From NCBI GenBank assembly GCA_902762455.1, contig CACWOG010000012.1:1-44372 (forward strand): a stretch of 44,372 nt of DNA, read 5' to 3'. The notes below the pieces were generated by a model. That model ran no database searches. It was not told where the DNA came from and saw only the letters and a list, made by a program, of their open reading frames with translations. Below are positions 15,695-23,627 of the stretch, in pieces; position 1 is the stretch's first letter; each line of letters opens with the position of its first letter. Source of the DNA: an uncultured Bacteroidia bacterium. Lineage in GTDB: Bacteria; Bacteroidota; Bacteroidia; Bacteroidales; ML635J-15. The position numbers were made by a program, and so were the translations under genes.

Positions 15695-18328
15695 TTAAAA
15701 CAGACTCATCTGCGTTCCGTCGTCGGGCATGAATGCATCGTCGGAAAGTTTCGACGAATCGTCTTCTGCCTGCGGTTCTTCCTCAGGCTCCTCATCCTCT
15801 GGCTTTACCAAAGGCTCTATGAAGCATATTTCCTTTACCTCGTAAGTTGTAAGTCGTTTGCCGCGGGCTGTTATACCCTTTACACCGATAAATTCTTCTG
15901 CATCAATAATTTCAGGCTCACGCTTTTCGTCCTTGCCGCCAAAGGTTATCTTAAGCTGCGGATGTTTGTCCTCGCTTACTGCAAGCATATACGAACCTTC
16001 GTATTCCGAAACAAACGACTGCGGTTTGGTCATTTCCTGAACATTGAAACGCTTCAAATAATAGAAGTTCTGCTCGGCATCGAAATGAACGGCAGTGAAA
16101 ACCTTGTCGGCCTTGTACTTCTCGATTATGAGAATGTCGTCGTTGTAGTGGTTAGAGAGGTCGAAATTGGTGAAAATGCAGTCGCCGGCATTGGTGACAA
16201 CGAGAATCTTGTCGGTTCCCGAAAATTCGCCCAAGTACTGTCCGCGTCCGTCAACATTGAGGCGCAAAACATCCTTGTCGAACCATATCTTGCGTCCGCC
16301 AAGCGTCGAAACGCCTTCTTCCTTCTGCGTAATCTTGTGTATTTCGGTACGGGCGAAAATATTTCCCTGCGCATCGCGGTTCTTTATGGCAATGTCCTTG
16401 AAATCAACATCAAAGGTAAGTTTTCTCAATTTCGGCTTCGGCTTCAGCTTGCACGAGATAACTTCGGCTTCACCATTTGGATTAGCCTTGAAGTACAGCA
16501 ATTTAGAACCGGGTGTCCCCTTGGTCATATCGTATTCCTTGTCGCGGATGACATTGGTAATTGCAAAACGCTTGATGTATGAAGTTGCCGACTTGCCATC
16601 GCGGTAAACCACATTGTAGATGGTGCGCTTGTCGTTCTTGCGGTACACAGCCACATATATTATGCCCTTGCCGAAGAATGCCTTGTCGGTCACCTTTGAA
16701 ACCTGATATTTTCCATCTTCGTGAATGACAATGATGTCGTCGATGTCGGAGCAGTCGCATACATATTCGTCCTTCTTCAAGCCATAACCAACGAAGCCTT
16801 CTTCCCTGTTGATGTAGAGCTTTTCGTTTGCAACGGCCACCTCGCCGGCATCAATCGAATCGAAGTTGCGGATTTCGGTCTTGCGTTCGCGACCTTCGCC
16901 GTACTTTTCCTTGATGTGCTGGTAATAATTAATGGTATAGTCAACAATGTGGTCGAGGTCGTTCTGTACGGCCTTTATCTGTTCCTGTATTGCAATCAAG
17001 TCCTCGTCGGCCTTCTCGATGTTGAAGCGAAGAATGCGTTTCATCCTTATTTCCAGCAACTTTAGAATATCTTCGGCTGTTACCTCACGCATAAGTTTCA
17101 GCTTGTGTGCGATAATCTTGGAATGGATAAACTCGACTGCCTCATCGTTCGATCCGGCATTTTCGTAAGCCTTTTCCTTATAGATGCGCTTTTCGATAAA
17201 CCATTTTTCGAGCGACTGGTAATGCCATTGCTCCTCGAGTTCGCTCTTCTTGATTTTCAGTTCCTGACGGAGCAGTTCCAAGGTGTTGCGCACCGATGCT
17301 TCCAAAATTTCGGTTACCGAGGCAAAGCGTGGCTTGTCCTCCTCGATTACGCAGGCATTGGGAGAAATGGAAACCTGACAGTTGGTAAATGCGTACAATG
17401 CATCGATTGTAACATCGGCCGAAACGCCAGGCTGAAGTTCTATCAGAATTTCGGCATTTTCGGCGGTGTTGTCGTCAACTTTCCTGATTTTTATCTTGTT
17501 CTTCTCGTTGGCTTTCAGTATGGTGTCGATGATTCCGCTGGTTGTCTGTCCGTATGGTATCTCCTTGATTGCCAAAGTCTTCTTGTCAACCTTTTCGATA
17601 CGGGCACGGATGAGCAGCTTTCCACCGCGCTGACCATCGTTGTAGCGGCTCACATCGATAAGACCGCCAGTGGGGAAGTCGGGATAAAGTTGCACGGGCT
17701 CGTCGCGGAGCACTGCAATACAGCCGTCGAGCAGTTCGTTGAAGTTGTGCGGAAGAACTATAGAGTTGAGACCTACGGCAATACCTTCTACGCCCTGAGC
17801 AAGCAGAAGCGGGAACTTTATAGGCAGGTTTATAGGTTCCTGCTTACGACCGTCGTATGAATCCTTCCAGAAGGTGGTCTTGTTGTTGAAAGCCACCTCG
17901 AGGGCGAACTTCGAAAGACGAGCCTCGATGTAACGGGGTGCTGCTGCGCTGTCGCCTGTGAGTATGTTACCCCAGTTACCCTGAGTTTCGATGAGCAGGT
18001 CCTTCTGTCCCATCTGCACCAAAGCACCGCCGATTGCAGCGTCGCCGTGCGGGTGGTACTGCATTGTCTGACCGACAATGTTTGCCACCTTGTTGAAACG
18101 GCCGTCGTCTATCTGCTTCATTGCGTGAAGGATACGGCGTTGTACCGGTTTCAGACCATCGTAAATGTGTGGTACGGCACGCTCGAGAATTACATACGAG
18201 GCATAGTCCAGAAACCAATTCTGGAACATATTCTTCATACGAGTAATGGTGACACCGGTTTCGGGATTCTGTTCTACCTCGATAACATCGGTTTCGTCCT
18301 GCGGTATATTCTTGTTTTCGTCGTCCAT
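15695..18328 (-). CDS. parC: DNA topoisomerase IV subunit A (877 aa)
   Basis: Breakage-reunion subunit of the type IIA topoisomerase that decatenates daughter chromosomes, working with ParE encoded just upstream. The N-terminus (1-30) is acidic and non-conserved. The winged-helix DNA gate has the active-site Tyr133 in APRYIEARLS. The tower and coiled coil span about 350-480, followed by a beta-pinwheel-type C-terminal region (about 510-820) and an acidic tail ending in MSLF. In the quinolone-determining loop (YHPHGD, 91-96) the positions equivalent to E. coli ParC Ser80 and Glu84 are Ala97 and Gly101. It begins 12 nt after the parE stop, so the two form one operon. Confidence 0.93.
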   Translation of the reverse strand: MDDENKNIPQDETDVIEVEQNPETGVTITRMKNMFQNWFLDYASYVILERAVPHIYDGLKPVQRRILHAMKQIDDGRFNKVANIVGQTMQYHPHGDAAIGGALVQMGQKDLLIETQGNWGNILTGDSAAAPRYIEARLSKFALEVAFNNKTTFWKDSYDGRKQEPINLPIKFPLLLAQGVEGIAVGLNSIVLPHNFNELLDGCIAVLRDEPVQLYPDFPTGGLIDVSRYNDGQRGGKLLIRARIEKVDKKTLAIKEIPYGQTTSGIIDTILKANEKNKIKIRKVDDNTAENAEILIELQPGVSADVTIDALYAFTNCQVSISPNACVIEEDKPRFASVTEILEASVRNTLELLRQELKIKKSELEEQWHYQSLEKWFIEKRIYKEKAYENAGSNDEAVEFIHSKIIAHKLKLMREVTAEDILKLLEIRMKRILRFNIEKADEDLIAIQEQIKAVQNDLDHIVDYTINYYQHIKEKYGEGRERKTEIRNFDSIDAGEVAVANEKLYINREEGFVGYGLKKDEYVCDCSDIDDIIVIHEDGKYQVSKVTDKAFFGKGIIYVAVYRKNDKRTIYNVVYRDGKSATSYIKRFAITNVIRDKEYDMTKGTPGSKLLYFKANPNGEAEVISCKLKPKPKLRKLTFDVDFKDIAIKNRDAQGNIFARTEIHKITQKEEGVSTLGGRKIWFDKDVLRLNVDGRGQYLGEFSGTDKILVVTNAGDCIFTNFDLSNHYNDDILIIEKYKADKVFTAVHFDAEQNFYYLKRFNVQEMTKPQSFVSEYEGSYMLAVSEDKHPQLKITFGGKDEKREPEIIDAEEFIGVKGITARGKRLTTYEVKEICFIEPLVKPEDEEPEEEPQAEDDSSKLSDDAFMPDDGTQMSLF

Positions 18329-18340
18329 AGTTTCTGTTTT

Positions 18341-20212
18341 TTAGTCTTCTTCCATCCTAAGGTTCTCGATAATGAAGTTCTGGCGCTCCTGGGTGTTGTT
18401 ACCCATAAAATAGTCGAGCAGAGCCTTTATGTTGTCGTCTTTCGACAGGGTAACGGGCGATAGTTTCATATCGGGACCGATGAAGTTTTTGAATTCCTGC
18501 CAGTTGATTTCACCGAGACCTTTGAATCGGGTAGTTTCCGAATTCTTGATTTTTTTCTGGGCCTCGTCGCGCTCGTTTTCGGTGTAGCAGTACTTGGTTT
18601 CCAGCTTGTTGCGCACACGGAAAAGCGGTGTTTCGAGGATAAACAGATGCCCCTGCCTGATGATGTCGGGGAAAAACTGCAGGAAGAATGTTATCAGCAG
18701 AAGCCTGATGTGCATACCATCAACATCGGCATCGGTTGCGATTACCACATTGCGGTAGCGGATATTGTCGATTCCCTCCTCAATGTTGAGTGCCGCCTGC
18801 AAGAGGTTGAACTCGTCGTTCTCGTAAACAACCTTCTTGGTCTTGCCGTACGAATTGAGCGGTTTACCGCGCAAGCTGAACACTGCCTGAGTGGTAACAT
18901 CGCGGCTCTTGGTGATTGAACCGCTTGCAGAATCACCCTCGGTGATGAAGATTGTACTTTCGTCGCGACGGGGATTGTTGCTGTTGTAGTGGATACGGCA
19001 GTCGCGAAGCTTCTCGTTGTGCAGGCTGACCTTCTTGGCCTTTTCGCGGGCAAGTTTCTGTACGCCCGACATTGCCTTGCGCTCCTTTTCGGATGACTGG
19101 ATTTTCTCAAGCATCCTGTCGGAAATTTCCTTGTTCTTGTGCAGGTAGTTGTCAACCTCGCGCTTAATGAAGTCTCCGATGAACTTGTTGACGCTTACGC
19201 CCGACAGCGGATAAGGATTACCATCTTCATCCTTCTCTGGCGCCATATTTGCAGAGCCAAGCTTAATTTTTGTCTGGCTTTCGAAAGTAGGTTCAATGAC
19301 ATTTATAGCGATGGCAGCCACGATTCCGCTACGAATATCCTGCGGCTCGAAGTTCTTGCCGTAGTATTCCTTGATTGTGCGGGCAATGTGTTCCTTGAAT
19401 GCGCTCTGATGAGTACCGCCCTGCGAGGTGTATTGTCCGTTTACAAACGAATAGTATTCCTCGCCGTTCTGGTCGGTGTGGGTGAATGCAATCTCGATGT
19501 CGTCGCCCTTGAGGTGGATATGCGGATAAAGCGGTTCTGAATTGTGGCGTTCTTTCACAAGGTCGAGAAGACCGTTTTTCGAAATGTACTTTTTGCCGTT
19601 GAAATTAAGTGTAAGACCAGTGTTGAGGTAGCTATAGTTGCGGAACATCGTCTCGAGGTATTCTTCGCGGAAGCGGTAGTGTCCGAAAATCTCCTCGTCG
19701 GGGGTAAATTCCACATAAGTACCGTTCTTTTCGGTTGTTGGAACAAGGTCGTATTCCTTCACCAGCTTGCCTTTCTCAAAATCGGCCTGCTTCATCATTC
19801 CGTCGCGGAACGACTTAACGGTAAATGTTACCGACAAAGCGTTCACCGCCTTGGTACCAACGCCGTTCAAACCGACCGACTTCTGGAAAGCCTTGTTGTC
19901 GTATTTACCTCCGGTATTCATTACCGATACGGCATCTATCATCTTGCCCTGCGGGATTCCTCGTCCGAAGTCGCGAACCGAAATGGTATTTTCGCGCAAT
20001 TTGATTTCGATGTTAAGCCCGAAGTGCATACGGAACTCATCGATAGAGTTGTCGATGACTTCCTTCACGAGAACATAGATCCCATCGTCGGAAGCCTCGC
20101 CGTTACCGAGCTTGCCAATGTACATACCCGGACGCAGACGCACATGCTCGAGACCTTCGAGGGTGCGAATGTTGTCGTCGGTGTAGTTGTTTATGTTGTT
20201 GTTTTCTGCCAT
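18341..20212 (-). CDS. parE: DNA topoisomerase IV subunit B (623 aa)
   Basis: ATPase subunit of topoisomerase IV. GHKL domain: Glu51 (general base) and Asn55 in EVIDNSIDE, Asp81-Gly85 in DFGRGIP, and the ATP-lid GLNGVG (about 114-119). Transducer domain about 220-390. Toprim domain: EGDSASG and the metal-binding [10 protein letters not shown]. It ends in the short C-terminal region typical of ParE (623 aa; GyrB is usually longer). The start at 20212 gives the usual short, poorly conserved N-terminus before [17 protein letters not shown]. First gene of the parE-parC operon, with a -7 box 20 nt upstream. Confidence 0.93.
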
Positions 20213-20232
20213 TGAACAAAAATTTTGCTTCG

Positions 20233-20258
20233 CAAAAATACAAAACCGCTACGCCAAA
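20233..20258 (-). promoter_or_regulatory. Promoter of parE-parC
   Basis: Minus strand TATTTTTG (-7; 20233-20240) preceded by TTTG at 20255-20258. The flanking block TCAGATTTTGGCGTAG is nearly identical in front of the ParE-like gene at 20342-20965, so the promoter was duplicated with the gene. The 14-nt spacing is shorter than usual, but both copies keep it. Confidence 0.6.
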
Positions 20259-20341
20259 ATCTGACCTATACCTTATTTTTAATTAACAAAGTGGGTGTTA
20301 ATTACGGAATACGAATCTTTTCTTTAAAAATATTCTGCAAA

Positions 20342-20965
20342 TCATTTTTCCGAAACAATCTTTTTCTTATTGAAATAAAATGTAACTCCAGAGATATTGT
20401 CACTGTAGTTGCGGATTATTGTTTCAATATATTCTTTGCGGAAGCGGTAGTGCCCGAAAATTTCCTCATCGGGGGTAAATTCCACGTATGTACCTTTCCT
20501 CTCGGTCGTAGACTCAAGGTCGTATTCCTTCACGAGCTTGCCTCTCTCAAAATCAGCACGCTTCGTTTTTCTTTCTCTGAACGTCTTGATGGTAAATGAT
20601 GCTGATAAAGCATTTGCAAGTTGCGGACCATATAGCGGCACCAATAAGAACTTAGTGTAATCCTCGCTCCAGTGAGCTTTGATACGCATAACCATTACAT
20701 TTTCGTCAATCATATTATGATGTAATCCTATTCCGTAGTCACGAATAGAAATAGTTTTATCTTTAAGTTCTATTTTGATCTTATCTCCAACTTCCAAGAA
20801 CTCGCCGATTGACCAATCGAGAACTTTTTTCACGAGTACATAAATCCCATCATCGGGAGACTCACCATTGCCAAGTTTGCCAGTGTATAAAGTGGGGTGC
20901 AGACGCACACGATTAAGACATTCAAGTTCATAATCGTACATTGGTTCAATTTTATAATCTTCCAT
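20342..20965 (-). CDS. Truncated, catalytically degenerate ParE-like GHKL protein (207 aa)
   Basis: The whole ORF aligns with residues about 10-215 of the adjacent ParE (for example [25 protein letters not shown] and RNYS are shared) and stops before the transducer and Toprim domains. Residues needed for ATP hydrolysis are replaced: EVIDNSIDE is KVLDWSIGE here (general-base Glu to Lys47, Mg-binding Asn to Trp51), and the lid GLNGVG has become LVPLYG. Asp76 and two Gly of DxGxG remain. The frame is open over 207 codons and the promoter is kept. It is either a pseudoenzyme that could bind ParE or ParC, or a recent decaying duplicate. Confidence 0.75.
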   Translation of the reverse strand: MEDYKIEPMYDYELECLNRVRLHPTLYTGKLGNGESPDDGIYVLVKKVLDWSIGEFLEVGDKIKIELKDKTISIRDYGIGLHHNMIDENVMVMRIKAHWSEDYTKFLLVPLYGPQLANALSASFTIKTFRERKTKRADFERGKLVKEYDLESTTERKGTYVEFTPDEEIFGHYRFRKEYIETIIRNYSDNISGVTFYFNKKKIVSEK

Positions 20966-20984
20966 TTGCTAAAAAATTTTTCTG

Positions 20985-21010
20985 CAAAACTACACGCAAC
21001 CTACGCCAAA
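20985..21010 (-). promoter_or_regulatory. Promoter of the ParE-like gene (duplicate of the parE promoter)
   Basis: TAGTTTTG (-7; 20985-20992) with TTTG at 21007-21010 and the same TCAGATTTTGGCGTAG block as the parE promoter, including the same 14-nt spacing. The ATG follows about 19 nt after the box. Confidence 0.6.
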
Positions 21011-21186
21011 ATCTGACCGATGTTTATTGATTCATCAAAATGTTTGTATATTTATTGCAGCGGGCCTGTGTGGAAATGGTGCCTTGAAATATCGGAGAAA
21101 TTTGATGCAGAGACTATTCTGCCCAGTTCTTCCAAAAAAATAGGAAGCATAACATTAAACCCAATATGGTGATTGGTTAAAAATAT

Positions 21187-21194
21187 TACTTTTG
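21187..21194 (+). promoter_or_regulatory. Promoter -7 box (TACTTTTG) for the M28 peptidase gene
   Basis: TACTTTTG ends 24 nt before the chosen ATG at 21219. A transcript would start near 21201, past the upstream TTG and ATG codons at 21192 and 21198, which supports the later start. Confidence 0.55.
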
Positions 21195-21218
21195 CAAATG
21201 AATTTAAAAGATATAAAA

Positions 21219-22470
21219 ATGAGGAAAATATTTGTTTTGATATCGGTTTTTGCATTGGTATTGGTGTTTCACGAAACATCTTTAAATGCACAGGATATAG
21301 TCTATTATAGACAGATTATCAAGGAATTAACTTCTGCAAAGTACCAAGGACGCGGATATGCGAAAGGCGGTTCGAACAAGGCTGGGAAATATCTGGAAAA
21401 GGAGTTCGCCAAAGCTGGTGCCGATGAAGTTGTTTGCCAGCCGTTCAAGTTGGACATAAACACCTACGTTGGAAATATGGAATTGTCGGTTGACGGTCGC
21501 AAGCAAACTCCGGGCGTTGATTTTGTAATGCGCGAGTACTCACCGGGCGTACACGGCACATACAATCTATACTTTGTCGATACCACCAATTTCGACGCGG
21601 AAAAGATGTACAGCGACCTTGCAAAACCCGAAAACAAGGATTGTTTCGTTGTTTGCGACTTCTGGTTTTCTTATACGCATAGCAAGGATTTCAAGAACCT
21701 GCAAATTCCTGGTGCTTGCACAAATGCAGGCTTGATACAGACATGGCCTCCGATACTGAAATTCTACAAGGCATACGGCGAAAAGGTGGTTGACAAGCCT
21801 ATCATTTGGGCAACATCTGATTTCCCGAAGGATGCCAAGACCATCACCGCCAACATCGACAACACTTTCCTGAAGGATTACGAGTGCTTCAATGTAGTTG
21901 CAAAGGTTGAAGGTCGCAAGCACGACAGTAGCTTCATCTTCACTGCCCACTACGACCATCTGGGCAACCTCGGCAAAAAGGTTTACTACGCTGGTGCCAA
22001 CGACAATGCCTCGGGCACAGCCGCCATAGTGACACTTGCCTCATATTACTCAAAGAACCGTCCCGAATACGACATGTATTTCGTCGCTTTTGCAGCCGAG
22101 GAATCGGGTCTGCATGGTTCTGAATGGTATGTAACCCATCCCAGTGTGCCGCTGTGTCTTCAACCTTGATATGATTGGCGACAACAATCCCGTGCAGTAT
22201 GTAGAGACCAATTCCGACCGTGGATTTGCCCTGTTTGAGCAAATCAATGGCGAAAAGCACTACTTCAAGGGGTTGAATCGTGGGGAACTGGCTGGCAACA
22301 GCGACCATTATTCGTTTGCCGAACATAAAGTGCCATGCATACTGTTTGAAAACGAAGAAGGCGATGCCTTCAAGTATTACCACACAGTATTCGACACATA
22401 CGAGACCATGAAGTTCGATACCTACGAGCCTGTTTTCAGGTTGGTGAGGGATTTTGTGGAGAGGTATTAG
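21219..22470 (+). pseudogene. M28-family metallopeptidase broken by a frameshift
   Basis: Secreted zinc aminopeptidase family. The signal peptide begins MRKIFVLISV and ends NAQ. Zn-ligand motifs are present in order: AHYDH, GANDNASG and AAEESGLHGSE in the first frame; FNLDMIGDN and a late His in YYHTVFDTYE in the second. The first frame ends at 22169 (WYVTHPSVPLCLQP). The second, open from at least 22144, continues the family sequence through VFNLDMIGD to 22470. One extra base or two missing bases near 22140-22160 explain it. The start at 21219 gives the best signal peptide. Either a real inactivation or a sequencing error; all catalytic motifs survive when the frames are joined. Confidence 0.85.
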
Positions 22471-22604: not shown

Positions 22605-23627
22605 TTAGAAGAAGAAGTCGCAGAAGATTAATGCTGCGTTCCATTCAGGATGATTGCTGTAACATCTGCCGATTTCATTAAACGAGTTTTGGTCTTCGTC
22701 GCGGTTATTACGGCAAGTAACACGATCACCGTCGCAGTCGCCCATAATAATGTTACTGCTCGATTTCCTCGATTTCGTGTAAAGGGTGTTGCGCTCTACT
22801 TTGCAGACAACTGTGCCGTCTTTTTTGATTTCACCGCTCCAAATTTCACCGATTTTGCGGCCCGAAGCATCTAGAATGTCGCCATTCCCCTCGGGAAGTT
22901 TGCCGATTTTGTTCTCGTAACGGTCGTAAACGTTGCCGTGGCCGTCAACGTAGCCTACATCGTGAGAACCTTTCTCAACACTGATTTTCTTATCTTTTTG
23001 GTCGGTTGATGATGAAGAAGAAGATGATGAGGAGGAGGATGGAAGCTTTGTATATGTAGGAGCCTGTATATTGGGCTGTGATTTCTTTATCTCTTCTGAC
23101 TTTTGGGCTTTTTTATCGAAATCATCTTGTGTGAACACTAAGCCGAAGTACGCGTATGCTATCAGTAGAGGACTTATGGTTTTATCGGTGACAGTACCAT
23201 TGTCGCCTAAGCGGCGATCTCTGTAATAGACTTCTCCAATTGCACCAAGCACGGCTCCCAATTTTTCTTCGTTGCGCCATACGTAGAAAAAGTTTGTACC
23301 ATCTTGTTTAACTTGAATGGTGCCAAAGTTGGGTGCTTCGACAGTACCGTCTGCACTAATAGAGCCTTTCGGCGAACCTTGGCTGTCGGTAAATTTACCT
23401 GTGTTCGCATCGAGTTTATAGACTACACCATCGTTCATTGTAAATTCGAGCGTGGCAGGATTCCACTTGCCAACTTCTTTGCCGTCTCTGTTGAATGTTA
23501 CAATCTGACCGTTTGCATCGGGCTTGGGGATTGACAGACTGCCCGACTGCGCCCAAGCGTTGAAATTTGCACCAAGAATGATGACCATCAACGCCACTAA
23601 CACCTTGAAAATTGATTTTCTGTACAT
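22605..23627 (-). CDS. Secreted protein with poly-serine linker (340 aa)
   Basis: Signal peptide (about 1-27, ending NAWAQ). The N-terminal half (about 30-150) consists of short beta-hairpin-like repeats with DANGQIVTFNRDGKEVG-type motifs. An 11-serine run (about 197-207) is a flexible linker. After it come more such repeats (GYVDGHGNVYDRYENKIGKL; DASGRKIGEIWSG) and a Cys-containing tail ending CDFFF. No catalytic domain and no sorting domain are recognised. Isolated minus-strand gene with its own -7 box. Function unknown; possibly a periplasmic or surface protein. Confidence 0.75.
   Translation of the reverse strand: MYRKSIFKVLVALMVIILGANFNAWAQSGSLSIPKPDANGQIVTFNRDGKEVGKWNPATLEFTMNDGVVYKLDANTGKFTDSQGSPKGSISADGTVEAPNFGTIQVKQDGTNFFYVWRNEEKLGAVLGAIGEVYYRDRRLGDNGTVTDKTISPLLIAYAYFGLVFTQDDFDKKAQKSEEIKKSQPNIQAPTYTKLPSSSSSSSSSSSTDQKDKKISVEKGSHDVGYVDGHGNVYDRYENKIGKLPEGNGDILDASGRKIGEIWSGEIKKDGTVVCKVERNTLYTKSRKSSSNIIMGDCDGDRVTCRNNRDEDQNSFNEIGRCYSNHPEWNAALIFCDFFF

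Follow-up and report, generated by a model that had tools for sequence, protein, structure and literature searches.

Directly upstream of parE, and in the same orientation, a window of 44,372 nt from an uncultured Bacteroidia bacterium carries a gene for a diverged copy of the ATPase domain of ParE (the fragment; Table 1). It is a genuine partial paralogue of an unusual kind, for which our searches revealed no precedent, and it is present in two related rumen-type Bacteroidales genomes only. We give an even chance to the reading that it is a retained, weakly constrained pseudo-ATPase domain derived from a partial duplication of parE. A decaying duplicate is its main rival.

Table 1. Features of the parE locus, with positions in the 44,372-nt window
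Feature	Positions	Strand	Description
ParE-fragment ORF	20342..20965	-	207 aa, ATG start, uninterrupted; diverged copy of the ParE GHKL (24-kDa) ATPase domain
Hyper-diverged stretch of the fragment	20618..20731	-	codons 79-116 (ATP lid and its approach); 32/38 residues unlike ParE
Fragment leader and second promoter (P2)	20971..21021	-	copy of the parE promoter, exact 18-mer GGTCAGATTTTGGCGTAG
parE promoter and leader, paralogous copy	20219..20269	-	conserved in sister genomes
parE	18341..20212	-	full-length topoisomerase IV subunit B (623 aa) with intact ATPase motifs
parC	15695..18328	-	topoisomerase IV subunit A-like, 877 aa; assigned from its position after parE and from reading the sequence, without a family search
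Near-identical block, window genome (G000) versus G005 (RUG13567)	20191..21012		822 nt, single difference at 20762

The fragment is a copy of one ParE domain

BLASTP aligned the fragment with residues 18-212 of the neighbouring ParE with 106 of 195 residues identical (54%, E 4e-66) and two single-residue gaps, and the two genes are 68% identical in DNA sequence. One run of 19 identical residues is longer than scattered mismatches would give (P 0.0005). The initial annotation, which had described a 207-codon ORF beside parE that aligns with ParE and keeps long identical stretches in an open frame, was therefore correct on this point. The fragment is 54-58% identical to the ParE proteins of the window's subclade and 30% identical to GyrB, and in protein trees it joins the subclade ParE with support of 93-98 on a branch of length 0.92-0.98. 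These identities and the tree placement show that it shares its ancestry with ParE rather than with GyrB.

The end of the fragment coincides with the end of the 24-kDa ATPase domain of GyrB and ParE, and the fragment spans exactly one domain. The transducer, TOPRIM and C-terminal domains of a full ParE are absent, and an N-terminal arm was not recognisable in the fragment. With the NCBIfam parE and gyrB models the fragment scored 45-59 bits against cut-offs of at least 723, and the full-length neighbouring ParE also fell below the cut-offs, with 318-414 bits. Laboratory constructs of the GyrB 24-kDa domain (PDB 7ptf and 4duh), which are among the best solved-structure matches, have the same extent. 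However, those constructs were cut from active GyrB, whereas the fragment is a natural gene product with a broken site and is about 23% identical to them in structural alignments.

The ATP site is degenerate in a predicted GHKL scaffold

Residues of the ATP site were numbered as in E. coli GyrB and mapped onto the alignments. The catalytic Glu42 is replaced by Lys47 and the Mg-binding Asn46 of the N box by Trp51, and Asp49, Arg76 and Pro79 have become Gly54, Ile79 and His82. The glycine-rich ATP lid has changed from GLNGVG to LVPLYG, with the loss of nearly all lid glycines. The equivalents of Asp73 (D76), Gly77 (G80), Glu50 (E55), Arg136 (R130) and Thr165 (T159) are kept, and the DxGxG motif of the G1 box is present as D76-Y-G78-I-G80. 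An earlier statement that all catalytic GHKL residues are replaced thus holds for the Glu, the Asn and the glycine lid, but goes too far for DxGxG and for the Glu50, Arg136 and Thr165 equivalents. Because the catalytic Glu and the Mg-binding Asn are gone and the lid is rewritten, ATP hydrolysis by the fragment should be lost; some residual nucleotide binding may persist.

The DNA identity to parE drops to 40% in codons 99-118. A compensated double frameshift behind the odd lid was considered and rejected, as no other frame is ParE-like there and the in-frame offset was the best both for codons 79-98 and for codons 99-118. In GyrB, Arg76, Pro79 and Asn46 hold aminocoumarins. The equivalents of these three residues are lost, which makes a role of the fragment as an aminocoumarin decoy unlikely.

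An AlphaFold model built with an alignment of ParE relatives has a GHKL fold with a mean pLDDT of 84.8, with low confidence confined to the first ten residues and to the lid (about 91-110). A Foldseek search using this model returned the 24-kDa and 43-kDa domains of GyrB and ParE as the best matches (E about 1e-13 to 1e-14). Folding from the single sequence gave an uninformative pLDDT of 32. Because the fold fails without the ParE relatives, the model indicates compatibility with a GHKL fold and is not proof of it. A profile search with Pfam HATPase_c gave no match to the fragment. The fragment is predicted from the model to have the Bergerat fold.

Compared with the N-terminal GHKL 24-kDa domain of ParE, the fragment is alike in sequence (54% identity), predicted fold, domain boundary, DxGxG motif and the Thr165 and Arg136 equivalents, but it differs in the absence of the arm and the downstream domains and in the loss of the catalytic Glu, the Mg-binding Asn, Arg76, Pro79 and the lid glycines. 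It resembles pseudoenzymes that arose by partial gene duplication in having lost catalytic residues, kept the scaffold and remained beside its parent gene. No described example of such a pseudoenzyme derived from ParE or GyrB was found in a literature search.

Tests for selection on the fragment and the case for decay

About 88 of 194 fragment residues have changed, yet the frame is open and contains whole-codon indels only. The changes cluster in the lid, as shown by a scan-corrected permutation (0/20,000 for 38 residues; P <0.001 for windows of 30-38 residues). The pairwise dN/dS between the fragment and ParE, a value that includes the ParE branch, was 0.37 overall, 0.27 and 0.26 in the two flanks and 1.0 in the lid.

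For the branch models, the fragment was placed to split either before or after the sister genome G022, and the codon likelihoods of the two placements (-2744.4 and -2743.0, respectively) did not separate them. The nucleotide tree of the sister parE genes was poorly resolved and contained one misaligned sequence (G013), so the groupings at the core of the tree were assumed in these models. A single omega on the fragment branch since duplication was 0.48-0.54, compared with 0.027 for ParE; a value of 1 was rejected with the fragment inside the G022 split (p 0.012) but not outside it (p 0.20). With separate omegas, the estimates were 0.35-0.42 for the flanks and 2.6-3.1 for the lid (codons 79-118). 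One shared omega was rejected (2dlnL 55-57), as were two omegas both equal to 1 (2dlnL 59-62), with p about 1e-13 for either rejection. For the flanks only, p against neutrality was 0.002 or 0.15 depending on which of the two equally likely placements was used, and the flank omega was 0.22 when the lid was taken as neutral. The lid omega above 1 is suggestive; the lid boundaries were picked after inspection, and the scan-corrected permutation guards the claim of clustering rather than that of omega above 1.

Among neutral simulations matched for amino-acid change, 0-2.5% of the runs ended without a stop codon (P 0-0.025). Conservative replacements had a share of 0.38-0.40 in the fragment versus 0.28 in the simulations (P 0 to 0.035). 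Outside the lid, 14 of the 48 ParE-invariant positions had changed versus 34 of the 77 variable ones, which is not a significant difference (p 0.13). Together, these results make plain uniform decay of the fragment unlikely and weak constraint likely, and they exclude constraint of the strength seen for ParE. Our initial annotation had favoured a retained pseudoenzyme, and the degenerate GHKL ATP site and the poor fit of uniform decay agree with it; it is tempered by the branch omega of about 0.5, for which 1 is not excluded in one placement.

The same omega is what could be expected if the fragment were a functionless, decaying partial duplicate that has stayed open by chance, has been carried from one species to another by recombination around the essential parE and has had its lid scrambled by one local replacement. 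We regard this main rival as a serious contender, though not as the probable account. It is in keeping with AT-rich drift, since the G+C content of the fragment (39% versus 49% for parE) is as expected of a relaxed gene, and with the lack of a significant conservation bias outside the lid. Codons 99-118 are barely alignable as DNA, and one replacement event could explain the lid; however, the replaced segment must then have kept the frame and almost the exact length. Decay must also account for a frame that has neither a stop nor a frameshift after some 155-170 or more substitutions (P 0-0.025), for the excess of conservative replacements and for the rejection of uniform neutrality.

Alternatively, the fragment might be the remnant of a once full-length second ParE, a working or alternative subunit whose divergence was driven by selection and which afterwards lost everything beyond its first domain. 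Such a history would explain past constraint together with present relaxation, and the long independent branch in the protein trees is consistent with it. However, inspection by eye of the 60 nt that follow the stop revealed no trace of a transducer, TOPRIM or tail, the ATP site itself is broken, and a full-length divergent ParE of the fragment branch was not found in the genomes searched. We therefore consider this history improbable.

Our preferred reading, a partial duplication followed by weak constraint, would proceed as follows. A tandem duplication around the G022 split, in the lineage leading to today's ParE subclade, would have copied the parE promoter together with the initial ~210 codons, with the duplicate ending at the natural GHKL domain boundary. 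The copy would then have lost ATP hydrolysis while its scaffold was kept under weak protein-level selection. It survives in two species, which recently exchanged it by recombination at the parE locus; the sisters hold other genes there. Its product would be made and useful. In favour of this reading are also the truncation at the 24-kDa domain boundary, the recent exchange of an intact block and the parE-type promoter ahead of the gene; the restriction to two genomes and the dependence of the confident model on ParE relatives speak against it.

The subclade ParE proteins are themselves ~71% identical to ParE of two other families (L162-L164: G180, G397 and G257) and ~67-68% identical to ParE of their own genus outside the subclade, where measured. 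This hints at a horizontal replacement of parE in the window's subclade.

The promoter of parE is duplicated

The promoters and leaders of parE and the fragment form a 51-nt repeat that is 73% identical. In the window genome the 18-mer GGTCAGATTTTGGCGTAG occurs at only these two sites, even allowing 2 mismatches; within the genus, nearly all of its occurrences are close to parE. A TAnnTTTG element, as in the Bacteroidales consensus, is present in both copies of the promoter. A sigma-70 promoter scan gave no signal above chance, as expected for Bacteroidales.

P2 is also present in two sister genomes, with 94-96% identity over 45-141 nt. It precedes a lipoprotein gene in G016; in G006 it stands before a secretion-type gene, at a distance of 3.3 kb from parE. 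The duplicated promoter block that had been reported for the fragment is hence a genuine repeat, but it is not special to the fragment. From these short sequences we infer that the duplication predates the separation of these species and that only the promoter was kept in other lineages. A second parE-like promoter with GGTCAGATTTTG(G/A)CGTAG was seen before three unrelated genes in different sisters (L030 2555-2600; L025 4766-4906; window 20979-21118).

Distribution and recent exchange between two species

The search for the fragment covered 26 genomes of the genus, 31 of the family and 393 across the order. Two species carry it, represented by the window genome (G000) and G005 (RUG13567, contig CADARW010000035.1), and no third copy was found in any of the three sets. 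The orthologue search in related genomes that the initial annotation had proposed thus yielded an intact orthologue in one other species, but no copy at the protein level in the remaining 9 ParE-subclade genomes. Sensitive blastn detected no decayed remnant of fragment DNA at the sister loci read around parE. The patchy presence (2/11 subclade genomes) and the turnover of gene content that occurs beside parE anyway are in line with decay.

The fragment genes of G000 and G005 differ at one synonymous base, and for this reason the orthologue dN/dS carries no information. Across 120 kb of matched stretches the two genomes diverge by 11% on average (about 89% identity). The divergence is 5.9% in parE and 3.3% in parC, compared with 1 base in 822 nt at the fragment. 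When 117 segments of 830 nt were compared, the one containing the fragment was the most alike, with 4 differences; the next had 7 and the median was 83. An 822-nt block with one difference against an average of 11% shows that the block moved recently between both species, or into both.

The compared genomes are draft assemblies, RUG13567 being a MAG and the window genome consisting of 354 contigs, and a near-identical parE promoter among sisters is a classic place for a wrong join. An assembly chimera, in which the block of one organism was joined to the parE of another at the roughly 110-nt near-identical promoter region, is nevertheless very improbable, as the two contigs that hold the fragment (15 kb and 44 kb) differ in their left flanks, and misjoining could put the fragment in the wrong place but would not produce its ORF.

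Two other assignments of the fragment were considered and set aside. With regard to an origin from a mobile element or phage, there was no viral-contig relative, and matches in plasmid and phage records were below 40% identity, the annotated ones being ordinary topoisomerase genes. PADLOC gave no match to a defence-system protein.

Possible function

Any action of the fragment on topoisomerase IV would most plausibly involve contact with the ATPase domain of ParE or with a ParE partner. ParE contacts ParC through the TOPRIM region, and the N-terminal arm crosses over in the N-gate dimer. Because the fragment has neither a TOPRIM part nor a recognisable N-terminal arm, its binding to ParC, as had been proposed alongside binding to ParE, is unlikely. 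We tentatively suggest, as a possibility well short of probable, that the fragment binds the N-terminal domain of intact ParE or another ParE partner and could thereby temper topoisomerase IV. More doubtful is the idea that it is a transferable single-domain protein derived from ParE, with a lid remodelled by positive selection, that binds the topoisomerase IV N-gate or an attacker of it and serves as a modulator or decoy.

Should the fragment be functional, a bacterial type II topoisomerase would have a natural inhibitor or modulator derived from its own ATPase domain, and this would exemplify N-gate control without a drug. If it is decaying, it would be a clear case of a broken duplicate spreading between species beside an essential gene.

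Surroundings of the locus

In sister genomes, the position beside parE is occupied by other genes, among them a lipoprotein gene (G016 and partly G013) and a flavodoxin-like gene adjoining an M28 peptidase gene. Across the subclade, gene content turns over at the site preceding parE, which holds lipoprotein genes, flavodoxin-like and M28 peptidase genes, transporter genes or the ParE fragment (L025 4992-5822, L029 1-813, L027/L028/L032) and always ends at the same conserved parE promoter. In the window, the gene of the M28-family peptidase (21192-22470, + strand) is broken, its two parts lying in frames that overlap (21192-22169 and 22144-22470). The peptidase is intact, with 415 aa, in the sister genomes (L027, L028 and L032). 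Further along, at 22605-23627 (- strand), the window encodes a protein of 340 aa that begins with a signal-like sequence, contains 12 serines in a row and matches Bflower_2 (beta-flower) weakly, below the cut-off. A sequence resembling this protein adjoins the M28 gene in sister genomes.
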